This document shows positions 8,480-64,000 of a stretch of DNA of 64,000 nt, one piece after another (the stretch's first letter is position 1; each line of letters begins with the position of its first letter). The DNA is taken from positions 1 to 64,000 of the forward strand of contig CAITIQ010000063.1 in NCBI GenBank assembly GCA_903892415.1, given 5' to 3'. The position numbers were made by a program, and so were the translations under genes. Under the pieces are notes generated by a model. It did not search any database. It was given only the letters and a program-made list of their open reading frames with translations, and was not told the DNA's origin. This DNA comes from an uncultured delta proteobacterium. GTDB lineage: Bacteria > Myxococcota_A > Polyangia > Polyangiales > Polyangiaceae.

Positions 8480-10609
8480 ATGCAGAACACGAACAACGCT
8501 TCCAATCAGCGGCTCGCCAACCGGATGATGTCGGATGGAGTTCTCGCCGCCGACATGCACGCGACCGTGATGGCCTACATAGGGCTGCACGGCGGCCGCG
8601 TAGAAGACGCGATTCTCGAGAACCAACTGCTGAGTGAGGCCGAGCTTCTTCGCTACATCTCGACTCTGCACAACACGCGATTTGTTTCCACAGAGAAGCT
8701 CTACAAGGCTGGATTTGATTCCAAGCTGCTGACCCTGGTGCCGCGCAAGCTGGCGGATCAGCACTGTGTTTTTCCGGTGATGGCGGACGAGGTCGCGCGC
8801 ACGTTGACCGTCGTTACCGCTGATCCACAAGACCTCAGTGCGCTGCACGAGGTCAAGATTGCCAGCGGAGTACGTGACGTCTTGACGATCGTCGCGAGAC
8901 CAGCGGCGATTCGAGCCGCGATTGCACGCGGCTATTACAACGACACCAATCCGTTCGCCGAGCTCATGCGCGGTGGCAGTGGGCTCGTGCTCACCGTCCA
9001 TCGCTTCAGTGGCACCGTAACCAACTCAGGCCCAATCGAGGAGGCGGCCCAGCCCATTGCGGGAATCGTCCATCAGCTTCCATCGAGAGCACGTCAGGAC
9101 CTGAGAGCGCCGTCGGCGCCTGAACTGGCGCCGCCACCACCGCCACCGCCGCCGCCACCGCCGCCGCCACCGCCGCCACCGCCACCGCCACCGCCACCGC
9201 CACCGCCACCAGCGCCGGACACTGCGCCTCCCCGACTCGACCCGCGCAGAGCGGGTAGACGAACGAGCGATGGAGCTGACCTTCTCGCTTCACCGCCCGT
9301 CACCCTGACCATCGACTACGTCGAGACGCTCAATGTACTGGTTACGTTGCTCGAGAACAGTCGGCCTGAGCTGCGTGGTCACTCCGCGCAGTGCGCGCGG
9401 CTGATCAAGCGCGTTTGTGATCGTATGAGCCTTCCGGCTCCCCAGACGGTGGCGTACGTCGTCGCGGCCTATCTTCACGATCTCGGCAAGGCGGGGACCT
9501 ATCACCTAACCGCGCTCAACGTCGCCGAGTACGACGGCCACCGCGCCGCTGCGCAAAAGGTCTTCAACGTACCCGACCGCTTCCTGCAGGCGGTCGGTTT
9601 GCACGCGGATTCAAAGAGCGCACTTAACTCGATGTATGAACGCTTCGATGGGCGCGGCTTCCCGCTTGGGGTCGGTAACAAGGACATCCCGCTCGGTGGC
9701 CGTATCCTTGCGGTGGTGGATTCCTACGCCGACCTGACGATGAACCCGCGCAATCCAGCGCGGCGGATCTTGAACGCGGTCGAGGCTGTCGAGTTTCTCG
9801 GCCGGTACCGCGGGACGGTATTTGACCCCACCGTGCTTGACCTGGTGAAGACCGAGGTAGCTGGTGAAGATCTGCGAGCGAAGATCCTAGCGGAGCGGAA
9901 CAACGTACTGCTTGTGGATCCAGACCCTGAGGAGTCGATCATTCTCGAGCTGCGCTTGATCGAGGCTGGCTTCGACGTACGTATCGCGCGGACGTATCAG
10001 CAGGCCATTCACGAGCTGAAGAGTCGCGACGTCACGGTGGTGATCAGCGAGGTCGATCTCGACTCCGACGATGCAGGGCTTAGCCTTCGCACCGCGGCGG
10101 CGTCGGAGCCTTGGGGCCAACGCGTGATCGCTTGGATCGTCCACACCCGCAAGACCGATCGTCAGCTCGCCGAGATCGTCTTTGAACTTGGCGTCGACGA
10201 TCTCGTATCGAAGCCGACGCCAGCAGAGGTGCTCGTTACCAAACTTCGGCAGCTCATCGAGCGAAAGCGCGCCCGGGCGCCTACCGCCCCGCGCGGCGTG
10301 AGCGGCAGCCTCGCCGAGATGGGCATTCCCGACGTCGTGCAAATCCTCTGGCATGGCCGTAAGACCTGTACGATTCGGCTCAAAACCCGTTCAGCGTCTG
10401 GGGACATCGGCTTCTCGGAGGGGCAGATCGTTGATGCTCGCTACGGGACGAAGCGCGGTGAAGAGGCGTTCTACGCGATGCTCGCAATCAAAGAAGGCGA
10501 CTTTCACATCGACGCGGACGTTGTTCCCACCGACCGCACCATCGACGTTTCCCCCGAGGGCTTGTTGCTCGAAGGCATGCGTCGTTTGGATGAAGGTCTT
10601 TTGGGCTAG
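8480..10609 (+). CDS. MshEN-like / degenerate HD-GYP / receiver / DUF4388 signalling protein
   Basis: Multidomain cytoplasmic signalling protein (709 residues from ATG 8480; an in-frame ATG at 8426 would add 18). Order: GspE/MshE N-terminal-like domain (about 10-155), linker with 27 consecutive prolines (218-244), HD-GYP-like domain (about 285-465), response-regulator receiver (474-600), DUF4388/PATAN domain (608-705). The HD pair is present (HDLGK, H333-D334), but the HHExxDGxGYP signature is reduced to YERFDGRGFP, so part of the metal site is lost. In the receiver the phospho-acceptor position reads ISE (E524) instead of Asp. This suggests a nucleotide-sensing or scaffold role rather than active c-di-GMP hydrolysis; that is inference. 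DUF4388 proteins are frequent in myxobacterial two-component networks. Confidence 0.85.
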   Translation: MQNTNNASNQRLANRMMSDGVLAADMHATVMAYIGLHGGRVEDAILENQLLSEAELLRYISTLHNTRFVSTEKLYKAGFDSKLLTLVPRKLADQHCVFPVMADEVARTLTVVTADPQDLSALHEVKIASGVRDVLTIVARPAAIRAAIARGYYNDTNPFAELMRGGSGLVLTVHRFSGTVTNSGPIEEAAQPIAGIVHQLPSRARQDLRAPSAPELAPPPPPPPPPPPPPPPPPPPPPPPPPPPAPDTAPPRLDPRRAGRRTSDGADLLASPPVTLTIDYVETLNVLVTLLENSRPELRGHSAQCARLIKRVCDRMSLPAPQTVAYVVAAYLHDLGKAGTYHLTALNVAEYDGHRAAAQKVFNVPDRFLQAVGLHADSKSALNSMYERFDGRGFPLGVGNKDIPLGGRILAVVDSYADLTMNPRNPARRILNAVEAVEFLGRYRGTVFDPTVLDLVKTEVAGEDLRAKILAERNNVLLVDPDPEESIILELRLIEAGFDVRIARTYQQAIHELKSRDVTVVISEVDLDSDDAGLSLRTAAASEPWGQRVIAWIVHTRKTDRQLAEIVFELGVDDLVSKPTPAEVLVTKLRQLIERKRARAPTAPRGVSGSLAEMGIPDVVQILWHGRKTCTIRLKTRSASGDIGFSEGQIVDARYGTKRGEEAFYAMLAIKEGDFHIDADVVPTDRTIDVSPEGLLLEGMRRLDEGLLG
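9131..9211 (+). repeat. 27-codon polyproline tract
   Basis: An uninterrupted run of CCG/CCA codons encoding 27 prolines in the linker of the HD-GYP-like protein. It is a low-complexity stretch, prone to length change, and would need EF-P to be translated efficiently. Confidence 0.95.
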
Positions 10610-30311: not shown

Positions 30312-31700
30312 ATGGTCACCATGGGAAGCCAACGAAATCACCGCTCTCCGATTCCGCTTTGGACAGCTTTGATGCTGTTCGCCGTTCTGCTCATTCCGTC
30401 CGCATCCTTCGCTCAAGACAGCGAGTTCAGCGCGGCTTTGGAGGTCGGCGTCGGGAAGGCCGCTCTCGTATCCTTCGTCGCTGGGTTTCTGACGAGCCTC
30501 ACGCCTTGCGTCTACCCGATGATCGCCATCACGGTCAGCGTATTTGGCGCCAAGCAAGCCAAGTCGCGCGCGGAAGCGATGATGCTCTCGACGGCCTTCG
30601 TCATGGGTATGGTGGTGCTGTTCACGGCGATGTTCGTGATTGTCTCGCTCACCGGCGGCGTGTTCGGCTCGATCCTTCAGAACAAGTGGGTCATCGTCGG
30701 AATCGCGGTGGTGTTCATCGCGATGGCCGCGTCGATGTTCGGCGCCTTCGAACTGACGTTGCCTGACTCGATGATGCAGCGGCTCTCGGGCATGGGCGGT
30801 GTCGGTTACGGCGGTGCCTTCACGCTGGGGCTCGTCAGCGGGCTCGTGGCCGCGCCCTGCTCGGGCCCGGTCCTGATCTCGATGATGGCTGCCGTCGCGT
30901 CGAAGCAGAGCGCTGCGCTCGGAATCACGTTCGGTCTCTCCTATGCAGTCGGCCTCGGTATGCTGTTCTGGTTCGTAGGCACCTTCGCTGCGGCGCTTCC
31001 GAAGGGTGGCAAGTGGATGGTGTGGGTGAAGTCCTTCTTCGGCATCGTCATGCTGGTGCTCGCCTTCTACTATTTGAAGAACGCATTTCCCGTCTTGGCG
31101 GACTCGGCCAAACACGAAACCGCTTTCCTCGCGATCGCAGGCGGTATTGCGGTCTTCGGTCTGGCGCTCGGTGCGGTGCACAAAAACTGGGACGAGGGAG
31201 CTGTTGCCCGCGTTCGTAAAGGGGTTGGCATTCTAGCCGCAGTCACCGGCAGCTTTCTTTTCCTAGCGGCGATTGAAAAGCCGAAGGCGGCAACCGCTGA
31301 GGAGATCAAGGCCGAGCAAGACAAGCTTGCCGCCAAGGGCGAGAAGGTTTGGCCGGCGCTCGAGTTTGGTCACGACGAGGAGAAGGGCGTTGCTGCAGCA
31401 ACCAGCGAGAAGCGTCCGATGATCGTGGACTTCGGTGCTGATTGGTGTGGCGCCTGCAAAGAACTTGAGAAGCACACCTTCAGTGACGCCAAGGTCAAAG
31501 CCAACGCTGGGCGGTTTGTCGGCGTGAAGGTGGATGCCACCAACGAAGAAGATCCGAAGGTCGTTGCGCTGACGAAGAAGTACAACGTGAAGGGGCTTCC
31601 CACGGTGGTGATCCTGGATTCACAGGGTAAGGAAGTGAAGCGCTTCACCGAGTTCGTCGACGCCGAGAAGTTCTTGGCGGCACTCGAGCCGGTCCAATAA
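30312..31700 (+). CDS. dsbD: DsbD-type thiol:disulfide interchange protein
   Basis: Inner-membrane electron carrier passing reducing power from cytoplasmic thioredoxin to the periplasm. 462 residues: signal or first helix (LMLFAVLLIPSASFA), the eight-helix DsbD beta domain with the redox cysteines in LTPCVYPM (C66) and APCSGP, then a C-terminal thioredoxin-like gamma domain with WCGACK (C379, C382) and the cis-Pro loop GLPTVV. The N-terminal immunoglobulin-like alpha domain of E. coli DsbD is absent, so another periplasmic acceptor must take its place. No ccm or dsb genes adjoin. A single copy of the 95-bp repeat follows the stop. Confidence 0.92.
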   Translation: MVTMGSQRNHRSPIPLWTALMLFAVLLIPSASFAQDSEFSAALEVGVGKAALVSFVAGFLTSLTPCVYPMIAITVSVFGAKQAKSRAEAMMLSTAFVMGMVVLFTAMFVIVSLTGGVFGSILQNKWVIVGIAVVFIAMAASMFGAFELTLPDSMMQRLSGMGGVGYGGAFTLGLVSGLVAAPCSGPVLISMMAAVASKQSAALGITFGLSYAVGLGMLFWFVGTFAAALPKGGKWMVWVKSFFGIVMLVLAFYYLKNAFPVLADSAKHETAFLAIAGGIAVFGLALGAVHKNWDEGAVARVRKGVGILAAVTGSFLFLAAIEKPKAATAEEIKAEQDKLAAKGEKVWPALEFGHDEEKGVAAATSEKRPMIVDFGADWCGACKELEKHTFSDAKVKANAGRFVGVKVDATNEEDPKVVALTKKYNVKGLPTVVILDSQGKEVKRFTEFVDAEKFLAALEPVQ

Positions 31701-31712
31701 ACCAGCGCGGCA

Positions 31713-31811
31713 TTCCGCCGAAGGCGTATGCAGCAACAAGAATGACTCGTGCCCTCCTCGAGAGAAACGGCCGAAGGCGCCGTTGGACCTTCGATTAGGC
31801 ACGAGACATTC
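31713..31811. repeat. Diverged single copy of the structured 95-bp repeat
   Basis: This stretch matches the tandem unit at 62847-63404: TTCCGCCGAAGGCG, ATGCAGCA, AATGACTCGTGCC, a GGCCGAAGG core, CCTTCGA and a closing GGCACGAGACATT. The outer arms GAATGACTCGTGCC and GGCACGAGACATTC pair at 13 of 14 positions, and the pairs gained relative to the array copies are on both arms. The core pairs as AACGGC / GCCGTT, again differing from the array but still a stem. It sits 13 bases after the DsbD gene stop and about 50 bases before the next start. Confidence 0.85.
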
Positions 31812-62212: not shown

Positions 62213-62845
62213 GTGGTTACCCATCGACTATGCGCGCTCGCGTCCCTGAGCCTTGCACTCGCCGCGTGCGGCGGCGCCCCGACTGCCCCGAAGGAAGACG
62301 AGGTCTTCTATCTGCACGGGGGTGGTGTCATCGACAAGAACCGCAGTTACGAAGTCTACTTTCCGAAAATGGACGAGGAAAAGAGCGTCACGGTGCCTCG
62401 TCTCGTTGGCGTCGGCGTGCTTGATGGGGACGTGCGGCTCGCCCGGCCCATCGATTGGTCGATTCGCGATGCAGACTACACCGCCGAAAAGCGCTTCATT
62501 TCGTATCAGTCGCCTCGACAGTTCATCTTCTCGATTCTCGAACGTGTCGACCCTCCGACGGATCCCTGGTCCGAAGTCGAGAAACGCTACGAGAGTGAAA
62601 CTCGCGACCTGCTTGGGAAGTTCCTCGCCTCACGGCACCCCATCGGCACGGCGAACTCACAGGGCCGCTCGTACATCGTGGAGTCCACCGTCAAGTCGAA
62701 ACCGGAGAATCTCAAGTCCTACGCGACCGAGATCCTTGTCCGTTCTGACAAACGCGTCTTGCTGGTACAAGTCGTTCATCGCGGCGACATCGAGACGATC
62801 GGTGATGAAGTAAACGCGGCGATCTCCAGCATGATCGTCTACTGA
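62213..62845 (+). CDS. Lipoprotein of unknown function
   Basis: About 210 residues. The GTG at 62213 gives a compact lipoprotein signal (CALASLSLALAAC). Mature part: beta strands and helices with VEKRYESETRDLLGKFLA and YIVESTVKSKPENL; no known motif. The 95-bp tandem repeat starts immediately after its stop. The start is uncertain; upstream in-frame ATG 62126 would give a long basic leader. Confidence 0.68.
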   Translation: MVTHRLCALASLSLALAACGGAPTAPKEDEVFYLHGGGVIDKNRSYEVYFPKMDEEKSVTVPRLVGVGVLDGDVRLARPIDWSIRDADYTAEKRFISYQSPRQFIFSILERVDPPTDPWSEVEKRYESETRDLLGKFLASRHPIGTANSQGRSYIVESTVKSKPENLKSYATEILVRSDKRVLLVQVVHRGDIETIGDEVNAAISSMIVY

Positions 62846-62846
62846 G

Positions 62847-63404
62847 TTCCACCGAAGGTGGATGCAGCAGACAAATGACTCGTTCCTTCTGGGAGAAGGA
62901 CGGCCGAAGGCCCCGCATGTCCTTCGACTTGGTACGAGTCATTCCGCCGAAGGCGGATGCAGCAAACAGAATGACTCGGGCCCTCTGGGAGAAGGACGGC
63001 CGAAGGCCCCGCATGTCCTTCGACCTGGTACGAGTCATTCCGCCGAAGGTGGATGCAGCAGACAAATGACTCGTTCCTTCTGGGAGAAGGACGGCCGAAG
63101 GCCCCGCATGGTACGAGTCATTCCACCGAAGGTGGATGCAGCAGACAAATGACTCGTTCCTTCTGGGAGAAGGACGGCCGAAGGCCCGCATGTCCTTCTA
63201 CCTGGTACGAGTCATTCCACCGAAGGTGGATGCAGCAGACAAATGACTCGTTCCTTCTGGGAGAAGGACGGCCGAAGGCCCCGCATGTCCTTCGACCTGG
63301 TACGAGTCATTCCACCGAAGGTGGATGCAGCAGACAAATGACTCGTTCCTTCTGGGAGAAGGACGGCCGAAGGCCCCGCATGTCCTTCAACCTGGTACGA
63401 GTCA
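62847..63404. repeat. Six tandem copies of a 95-bp structured repeat
   Basis: Units begin with TTCC at 62847, 62942, 63038, 63121, 63215 and 63310 (lengths 95, 96, 83, 94, 95, 95). Each unit contains, in order: hairpin A (CCACC-GAA-GGTGG), a linker ATGCAGCAGACA, arm AATGACTCGT, then AAGGAC, hairpin B (GGCC-GAA-GGCC), GTCCTT, and closing arm ACGAGTCATT, which is the exact reverse complement of the first arm. Unit 2 has CCGCC-GAA-GGCGG, a paired change, and unit 3 has CCGCC-GAA-GGTGG with a G-T pair. Unit 3 lacks 12 bases, unit 4 lacks one. It fills 561 bases between convergent genes; no gene is supported within it, and a seventh diverged copy is at 31713. Confidence 0.95.
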
Positions 63405-63406
63405 TT

Positions 63407-64000
63407 TCAGCCGAGCGCTTCCACTTCCTCAAACGGGTTCGGCGGTGGTTCCGCACGCTCGATCTCTTCGTCGTTCTCGGGCTCCGGCTTCGGATCGTCG
63501 AGAGGCACAGTCAACACGAACGGCTTCTTGGGTCCGCCCAACCAAGCGGTTCGCTTGAGCGTCGATGCCCGAGGTGATCCGAGCTGGTAGCGCGGTGCGG
63601 CATCCGGCTTAACGTGTAGTTCAAGCAGGACGTCGTAGATGCCACGAGTAAAGACGGCGCAGATGCCACGCAGGAGGGGGCGCTTGTGGCCTCCCGGAAG
63701 GAACGCGAGGTAGTCGTCGTAACCAAGTGGACCGAGAACAATCTTGTAGCGGCTCGACGCATCAAACACGTACCGCCCGATTGTCAGTGATTGACCCAAG
63801 TTAGCGTTCGCCTCGCCAAGCCTGTTTCGATACGGCTTCTCGATTGGGGTCCACGCGCCCACGAATTGCTCGATCTTCACACCCATATTCCCGAACATCT
63901 CGTGCAGCGCCATGTTGAGGCCGCGAGCGCTGCGTGCGCGCCAAGCCAAGAGTGGGGCGTAGCGGAGAAAAAGGAACTTGTGGATCGGCGGACTGTGCGG
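63407..64000 (-). CDS. tssG: Type VI secretion baseplate protein TssG, 5'-truncated
   Basis: C-terminal part of a TssG/ImpH/VasB-family protein, component of the type VI baseplate wedge with TssE, TssF and TssK. The frame stays open to the window edge (IHKFLFLRYAPLLAWRARSARG), so the start lies beyond it; 197 codons are visible. Conserved segments: RSARGLNMALHEMFG, IGRYVFDASSRYKIVLGPLGYDDYLAFLPGGHKR, and the C-terminal LGSPRASTLKRTAWLGG. An unusual acidic/proline-rich tail (DDPKPEPENDEEIERAEPPPN) follows. The rest of the type VI locus should lie to the right. The stop is 3 bases from the repeat array. Confidence 0.85.
   Translation of the reverse strand, partial: PHSPPIHKFLFLRYAPLLAWRARSARGLNMALHEMFGNMGVKIEQFVGAWTPIEKPYRNRLGEANANLGQSLTIGRYVFDASSRYKIVLGPLGYDDYLAFLPGGHKRPLLRGICAVFTRGIYDVLLELHVKPDAAPRYQLGSPRASTLKRTAWLGGPKKPFVLTVPLDDPKPEPENDEEIERAEPPPNPFEEVEALG

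Follow-up and report, generated by a model that had tools for sequence, protein, structure and literature searches.

A dispersed family of short hairpin elements between TT dinucleotides in a myxobacterial genome

REPINs and BIMEs are the nearest bacterial kind to the element family described here. REPs bear GTAG-type tags and have RAYTs, the units of BIMEs face in alternating directions, and in tandem REPIN clusters the flanks are repeated as well (PMC3116915, PMC2817692; see also PMC3733652). The present family resembles them as short extragenic palindromic mobile DNA with more than 100 copies, compensating changes and clusters. It differs in that its genome gave no Y1 match, it carries no GTAG/CGTC tag, its units abut in one orientation, and TT stands on both sides.

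The IS607 family is described as having the overlap dinucleotide at both junctions, little target specificity and a proposed circle with rejoined ends (PMC4058570, PMC6188088). The present element likewise has no terminal inverted repeats and has an overlap dinucleotide at both ends, with one TT/AA in the empty target, and little target specificity; a circle is a proposal in both cases. It differs in having TT instead of GG, a length of about 95 bp, many hairpins, and no transposase gene found. IS607 ends are not known to have such hairpins.

Integron attC sites have the consensus boxes RYYYAAC/GTTRRRY (PMC12901181). The likeness lies in the folded hairpin, the junction before TT, the head-to-tail arrays of diverged units and the dispersed insertion in the genome. 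In contrast, the ends here read GAATGAC/GTCATTC, the boxes and cassette genes are absent, and no attI was seen. A eukaryotic parallel is DINE-1, a Helentron of Drosophila. DINE-1 inserts at TT and has a hairpin near its end that is thought to be kept by compensating changes (PMC2374699), and both features recur here. DINE-1 is longer, however, and it inserts between two Ts without duplication.

The array and its neighbours in the window

The window is the whole 64,000-nucleotide stretch that was analysed. Positions 62847–63404 hold six head-to-tail units of 83–96 bp, spaced by 95, 96, 83, 94 and 95 bp, and the last unit is 95 bp long. The array exactly fills the gap between the stop codon of a lipoprotein-like ORF (62843–62845) and that of tssG on the opposite strand (63407–63409).

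62213..62845, + strand: left neighbour, lipoprotein-like ORF without a Pfam match, stop at 62843–62845
62847..62941, + strand: unit 1, TT plus element, ending in ...GAGTCA
62848–62853/62857–62862, + strand: hairpin A of unit 1, read from the sequence
62902–62905/62909–62912, + strand: central hairpin of unit 1, read from the sequence
62874–62882/62935–62943, + strand: outer arms of unit 1, read from the sequence
62942..63037, + strand: unit 2, hairpin A altered on both sides (CGCC/GGCG), 92% identical to unit 1
63038..63120, + strand: unit 3, 83 bp with an internal deletion, hairpin A CGCC/GGTG with a G-T pair
63121..63214, + strand: unit 4
63215..63309, + strand: unit 5
63310..63404, + strand: unit 6
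63405..63406, no strand: closing TT, second copy of the TT at 62847–62848; the site reads G-TT-[array]-TT-T
63407..64000, − strand: right neighbour, tssG, continuing past the window (PF06996, 260 bits on the full gene L313:408-1517)
31713..31808, + strand: seventh copy of the window, single, closing TT at 31809–31810; the model match extends to 31814 and includes flank

The preliminary description had reported six copies of a 95-bp repeat. The six units stand and the uniform length does not, unit 3 being internally deleted. Its hairpin A, hairpin B and outer arms were all found, as TCCRCC-GAA-GGYGGA, the central CGGCC-GAA-GGCC and AATGACTCG/CGAGTCATT, and its reading of hairpin A in copies 2 and 3 agrees with the changes listed above. 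The GAA triloop given for both hairpins is the usual one but is not fixed genome-wide, where AAA, GTA, GCA and GGA, for example, also occur.

By BLAST, the units of the window array are 94–100% identical to unit 5, and the array probably arose mostly by local copying. The Rfam search of 62400–63700 gave no match at the curated threshold; the best hit scored 19.8 bits where 80 was required. We rejected a coding role. ORFs of about 100–170 codons do cross the array, but not every unit has a length divisible by three, and the paired changes follow the hairpin pattern.

The tssG gene is followed by tssF (PF05947, 510 bits), and the single copy at 31713 begins 13 bp past a DsbD-like gene (30372–31700). 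The closest named relatives of a formyltransferase encoded in the window belong to Polyangiaceae, Minicystis, Polyangium and Sorangium (about 57–61% identity), which indicates that the host is a myxobacterium of that circle. A tandem-repeat scan also listed a CGCCAC hexamer array of 14 copies at 9129–9210.

The genome-wide family, its ends and its empty sites

With a covariance model built on 26 copies, the 10.85-Mb genome of origin yielded 148 matches (E ≤ 0.01; 150 candidates scored). Because the weakest match (31 bits) and a few overlapping ones are uncertain, the family is counted as more than 140 copies. One unit searched by BLAST gave 61 matches at E ≤ 10, with 40 of 131 candidates scored. 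The left-end 22-mer with at most two mismatches gave 167 matches, against 0 for a reversed-pattern control. The assembly is fragmented: it has 673 contigs, with 92.8% completeness and 6.3% contamination. On twenty contigs a copy lies no more than 210 bp from an end, whereas about 3 of 112 places would be expected there by chance; the element is therefore a probable cause of assembly breaks, and its copies are probably undercounted.

The preliminary description had proposed a covariance search of the genome and its relatives, and had named the lack of both further copies and significant covariation as refuting its reading. More than 140 copies were found at home and none in the other genomes searched. 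Among 108 genomes of the family, model R1 matched the genome of origin alone, leaving 107 without the elements. The same held among 59 close genomes, where two genomes of the same genus gave no match. These wide searches scored the best 68 and 37 candidates per genome under stricter filters, so weak relatives could escape; the genome of origin still gave 68 and 37 matches under those settings. No match was obtained by blastn of one copy against plasmids and phages, or by exact patterns against the genome_contigs and viral contigs collections, from which the genome's own records may be absent. In open-licence literature on palindromic repeats and miniature elements in myxobacteria, no title or abstract opening among the papers listed described this family. 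Genome G045 was rejected as a second host: it gave many seed hits, but the matches were short (at most about 36 bases, E 0.04 or worse). In the stretch of G045 that was viewed (L300, contig C705), this genome of the order has its own, different inverted repeat with TTGTCCTTCGACTT inside, which gave many such hits.

The 148 matches in the fetched DNA comprise 141 in 100 loci and 7 in the window; contig C256 and four places with weak model matches lie outside the fetched set. They form 112 places, namely 86 single, 19 double, 6 triple and 1 sixfold, a few antisense overlaps included. By our own gene calls, 52 places lie between co-directional genes, 19 between divergent and 9 between convergent genes, 13 overlap called ORFs and 19 are at contig edges. 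Convergent gaps account for 9 of the 80 clearly intergenic copy places and for 54 of 353 gaps in the same DNA. A general role at transcript ends, which had been suggested, is not supported by so few convergent places. The suggested binding array of a type VI locus was also rejected: the tssG neighbour is real, but the 112 places adjoin many other genes. Copies overlapping called ORFs include L156:2801-4402, L155:2927-3769 (a CBS-domain ORF, PF00571) and L143:3037-4479. Such copies may be in-frame insertions like the Rickettsia palindromic elements.

The ends of the element are sharp. They have the form R-TT-[~93 bp]-TT-Y, and isolated copies read R-TT-CCRCC...GAGTCA-TT-Y. The set for ends and targets consisted of 63 isolated copies found by pattern, less 4 beside a second module, that is, 59. 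TT was present at 58/59 left and 59/59 right ends; the pattern favours TT ends, and both TTs also exceed 90% in 114 aligned model matches. Against background, the base before the target is A in 34 and G in 13 of the 59 copies (p = 5e-14), and the base after it is C in 29 and T in 22 (p = 4e-7). Of the 20 positions tested, −3 (p = 0.01) and +10 (p = 0.02) also gave weak signals.

The doubling of TT rests on two empty sites of this element, one of them imperfect. The filled site in L144 reads ...CTA-TT-[element]-TT-CCATCAGC, and its empty paralogue in L124, which sits within an ORF, reads ...GCGCGC-TTG-TT-TCATCAGC with one TT. In the imperfect case, L141, AA-[element]-AA lies in a tandem repeat whose next unit reads GCGAATAG, which agrees with doubling less cleanly. 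No empty site was recovered when 10 kb of L088 served as the query.

Contig C160 of G001, a genome of the same genus, is syntenic with the contig of the window over about 29 kb (46355–75443). Its gap from the lipoprotein-like gene to tssG is about 30 bases, with TAG and TCA taken as the stops; it has a short GC-rich inverted repeat and no unit. On this pair alone the units could have been lost in G001, but gain in the lineage of the window is the simpler reading, because none of the 107 other family genomes showed the family.

Paired changes, nested modules and array growth

The fold of each unit consists of hairpin A and of a 13-bp outer stem enclosing the central hairpin. Compared with dinucleotide shuffles, RNA folding gave z-scores of −3.1 to −3.8 for three plus-strand stretches and −2.8 for one minus-strand stretch, and DNA folding gave −2.8 to −6.5 for three copies on both strands. 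Covariation was analysed in 114 copies aligned by sequence, with 23 pairs (set A3), in which 95.8% of cells pair. Changes on both sides were found in 77 cells. The shuffled mean was 25.5, with 0 of 500 shuffles as high, and sliding the partners by 1–3 columns gave 9–15. Both-sided change affected 11 of the 23 pairs, against 3.7 in shuffles (0/500 reach it) and 6–10 in the slid controls, so the case rests on the cells and not on the pair count. The covariation claimed earlier is thus supported. The changed cells lie mostly in hairpin A (62), with 15 in the outer stem and 0 in the central hairpin. One pair of hairpin A is A-U in 61 copies, G-C in 49 and G-U in 1; another is C-G in 98, A-U in 11 and G-U in 1. 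In the outer stem, 37 of 113 copies have a mismatch at one pair. That G-U steps are almost missing from hairpin A could reflect joint change on DNA, arm-to-arm correction or recombination.

A second hairpin module of 67–72 bp lies just before the outer stem in 8 loci, between AA and AA, which is TT/TT on the other strand; one of the 8 has AC in place of the first AA. The module also stands at element-element junctions in 3 loci and takes a 53-bp tandem form in L172.

Loci with the second module: L160, L161, L162, L165, L168, L171, L182, L183, L172, L079, L111, L136

L111/L136 and L182/L183 may each be one place counted twice. Element copies without the module are its empty sites. Two unlike hairpin sequences under one flanking rule suggest one machinery. 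L182 and L183 (contigs C218 and C347) are contig ends with a nearly identical module-bearing copy and flank, and may be strain variants.

The association between variable columns fell from a mean z of 4.4 at 1–2 bp to 0.2 at 11–20 bp and 0.0 beyond 60 bp (100 copies). The state of hairpin A was independent of the tree of the outer stem and loop (40 changes vs 42.9 ± 2.7 when shuffled). These results suggest segment exchange among copies. We do not regard complete shuffling of segments as proven: copies that have a right block in common are somewhat more alike elsewhere (0.831 vs 0.757; 10 pairs), and a star-like history in which several bases change together locally could give the same picture.

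Among the 100 left-end matches listed (of 167), 11 lack a model match, and these were searched for an autonomous parent; none was recognised as a gene-bearing element. They comprise hairpin A copies standing alone, copies with internal deletions and copies that bear the module. Hairpin A lacking the outer stem was seen in L184, L185, L188, L190 and L192, where A or G precedes TT. The one in L185 ends in ...GTCA-TT, as full copies do, and lies just upstream of a glutamine-synthetase-like start. In L111:89-213 a single stem carries a hairpin A at each end, the two facing opposite ways; this copy is possibly rearranged or doubly inserted. A third long palindromic repeat (GGGATGGGCGGTCGAATTGGACGTTTTGTT...) lies close to some copies (L127:2780-3000, L095 and L158).

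All 14 adjacent pairs among the 114 aligned copies have the same direction. Six of them, in 5 loci, are 0.76–0.78 identical, which matches the mean of 0.775 over 6,402 pairs of unlinked copies. Close relatives of array units were found elsewhere with different flanks: a unit of L127 is 99% identical to the middle unit of L098, a unit of L105 is 99% identical to the third unit of L098, and the single copy of L082 is 97% identical to a unit of L092. If 148 copies were spread over about 38,500 intergenic RTTY sites, all treated as equal, the extrapolated expectation would be about 0.6 same-site insertions. Diverged neighbours in the same direction, with close relatives elsewhere, indicate that several arrays grew by repeated independent insertion at an existing junction. 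Of the other adjacent pairs, two are 0.84–0.85 and six are 0.91–1.0 alike; these six show that local copying occurs too.

Movement of the element and candidate enzymes

Our reading, of moderate confidence, places the window array in a genome-wide family of short mobile, non-coding hairpin elements between TTs, likely inserted by a candidate trans-acting recombinase that joins the TT of the element to a TT of the target. The family shows past mobility, as distinct from present activity, and the element most likely persists because of its movement, without a host role. Of the earlier proposal of a REP/BIME-like mobile element family, the mobility is borne out by dispersed copies, sharp ends, doubled TT and an empty orthologous gap, and REP/BIME is kept only as a resemblance.

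The element would leave as a circle or a folded strand, with joined ends reading CGAGTCA-TT-CCRCC. An enzyme supplied elsewhere may recognise the hairpins and exchange strands across the two-base TT overlap, as proposed for IS607-type enzymes. Each insertion would restore the same junction, which matches the target rule, so that further copies could dock there in the same direction and form arrays. Local copying may then enlarge an array, as it probably did in the window.

Judged by anatomy, the element best fits the route proposed for IS607-type serine transposases (PMC4058570), since it has no inverted ends, a two-base overlap common to element and target, a polarity, and joined ends that recreate the site; integron-type and Y1-type routes stand beside it. 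The enzyme profiles tried were PF01797, TIGR02249, PF00239 and PF02371. PF00239 found two serine recombinases in the genome, one large and one cut by a contig end. Neither resembles the small IS607 kind, and no IS607-type TnpA was recognised in the genome. There were no element copies in the 1.9 and 2.5 kb fetched around the two genes. The IS110 transposase profile (PF02371) had 0 matches in the genome, and guiding of the bridge-RNA kind was rejected because interiors matched their own flanks no better than in shuffled pairs, 35 of 200 shuffles reaching the observed level.

A wider proposal is that the family is a new class of mobile palindromic DNA. Such a class would be folded and gene-free, with fixed-polarity integration at R-TT-Y across an overlap of two bases, head-to-tail docking like that of integron cassettes but with no cassettes, nested modules of the same kind, and an exchange of short internal segments that would make most copies mosaic. 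We offer this tentatively, as possible but somewhat unlikely.

It is improbable that the elements are REP/REPIN-type palindromes moved in single-stranded form by a Y1 transposase (RAYT or IS200/IS605-like). The compensating hairpin changes, the more than 100 mostly extragenic copies and the polarity suit single-strand transposition, of which REPINs and RAYTs are the best-known case (PMC3116915, PMC2817692). However, the linked RAYT/Y1 gene that the preliminary description had proposed to look for did not appear: PF01797 had 0 matches in the assembly (92.8% complete), whereas 6 of 14 control genomes were positive. The 114-copy consensus ends in TT-CCRCC and GAGTCA-TT, without a GTAG/CGTC tag. 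The units do not alternate, with 0 right-right and 0 left-left contacts by pattern, and they abut directly, whereas tandem clusters of REPINs are described as repeating the flanks too.

Slightly less probable is the insertion of cassette-free attC-type hairpins by an integron integrase at R^TT sites across the chromosome. The genome does have an integron integrase (TIGR02249, 281 bits against a cut-off of 265, positions 1–250 of 315), whose best PDB match is IntI4 (2a3v), and the head-to-tail arrays of diverged units resemble cassette arrays. The sequence need of IntI1 is small (GNT, extendable to GTTRRRY), attC is a folded hairpin, and cassettes also enter genome sites. Against this, RYYYAAC/GTTRRRY boxes are absent from the elements, whose junction is A-TT, and the target TT is mostly preceded by A. 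The integrase gene (L177:46-885, contig C149) departs from its family near residue 254 and lacks the C-terminal part, and the contig ends there. The sequence after the truncated frame resembles the start of an IS66-type gene. Several weaker tyrosine recombinases were found besides. No copies were present in the 2–8 kb fetched around these and the truncated integrase, 8 kb of whose contig was searched. Two tyrosine recombinases lie on contigs that bear copies, at C364:39177-39854 (about 6.5 kb from copies) and C606:69533-70351 (about 14 kb).

MITEs of an ordinary DDE insertion sequence would have the two-base duplication, short non-coding unit and intergenic spread seen here, but we regard them as very unlikely. 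Terminal inverted repeats are absent (left end CCRCC, complement of the right end TGACTCG), and the fixed polarity argues against a symmetric DDE enzyme, with which TT and AA would be expected equally in the frame of the element. The counts of TT given above come from pattern-picked copies, and the model alignment agrees with them. Least probable of all is a structure of benefit to the host (a transcript end, an RNA stabiliser or a protein-binding array) under selection for RNA or DNA folding: the paired changes, the position of the array, which in G001 is taken by a short inverted repeat flanked by convergent genes, and the several copies that begin 0–2 bases past a called stop codon would suit it, but the absence from the 107 family genomes searched, the mixed contexts of the 112 places and the empty paralogous and orthologous sites speak against it.

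Short palindromic repeats are common in bacteria. Here, clean ends, doubled TT, fixed polarity and arrays that include independent insertions make the enzyme question testable, namely what recombines CGAGTCA-TT-CCRCC. Among the genomes searched, the family is confined to one species-level genome, so a sister strain could reveal jumps directly. If the recombinase acts on the hairpin form, it would be a further route for moving folded DNA beside integron integrases and Y1 transposases.
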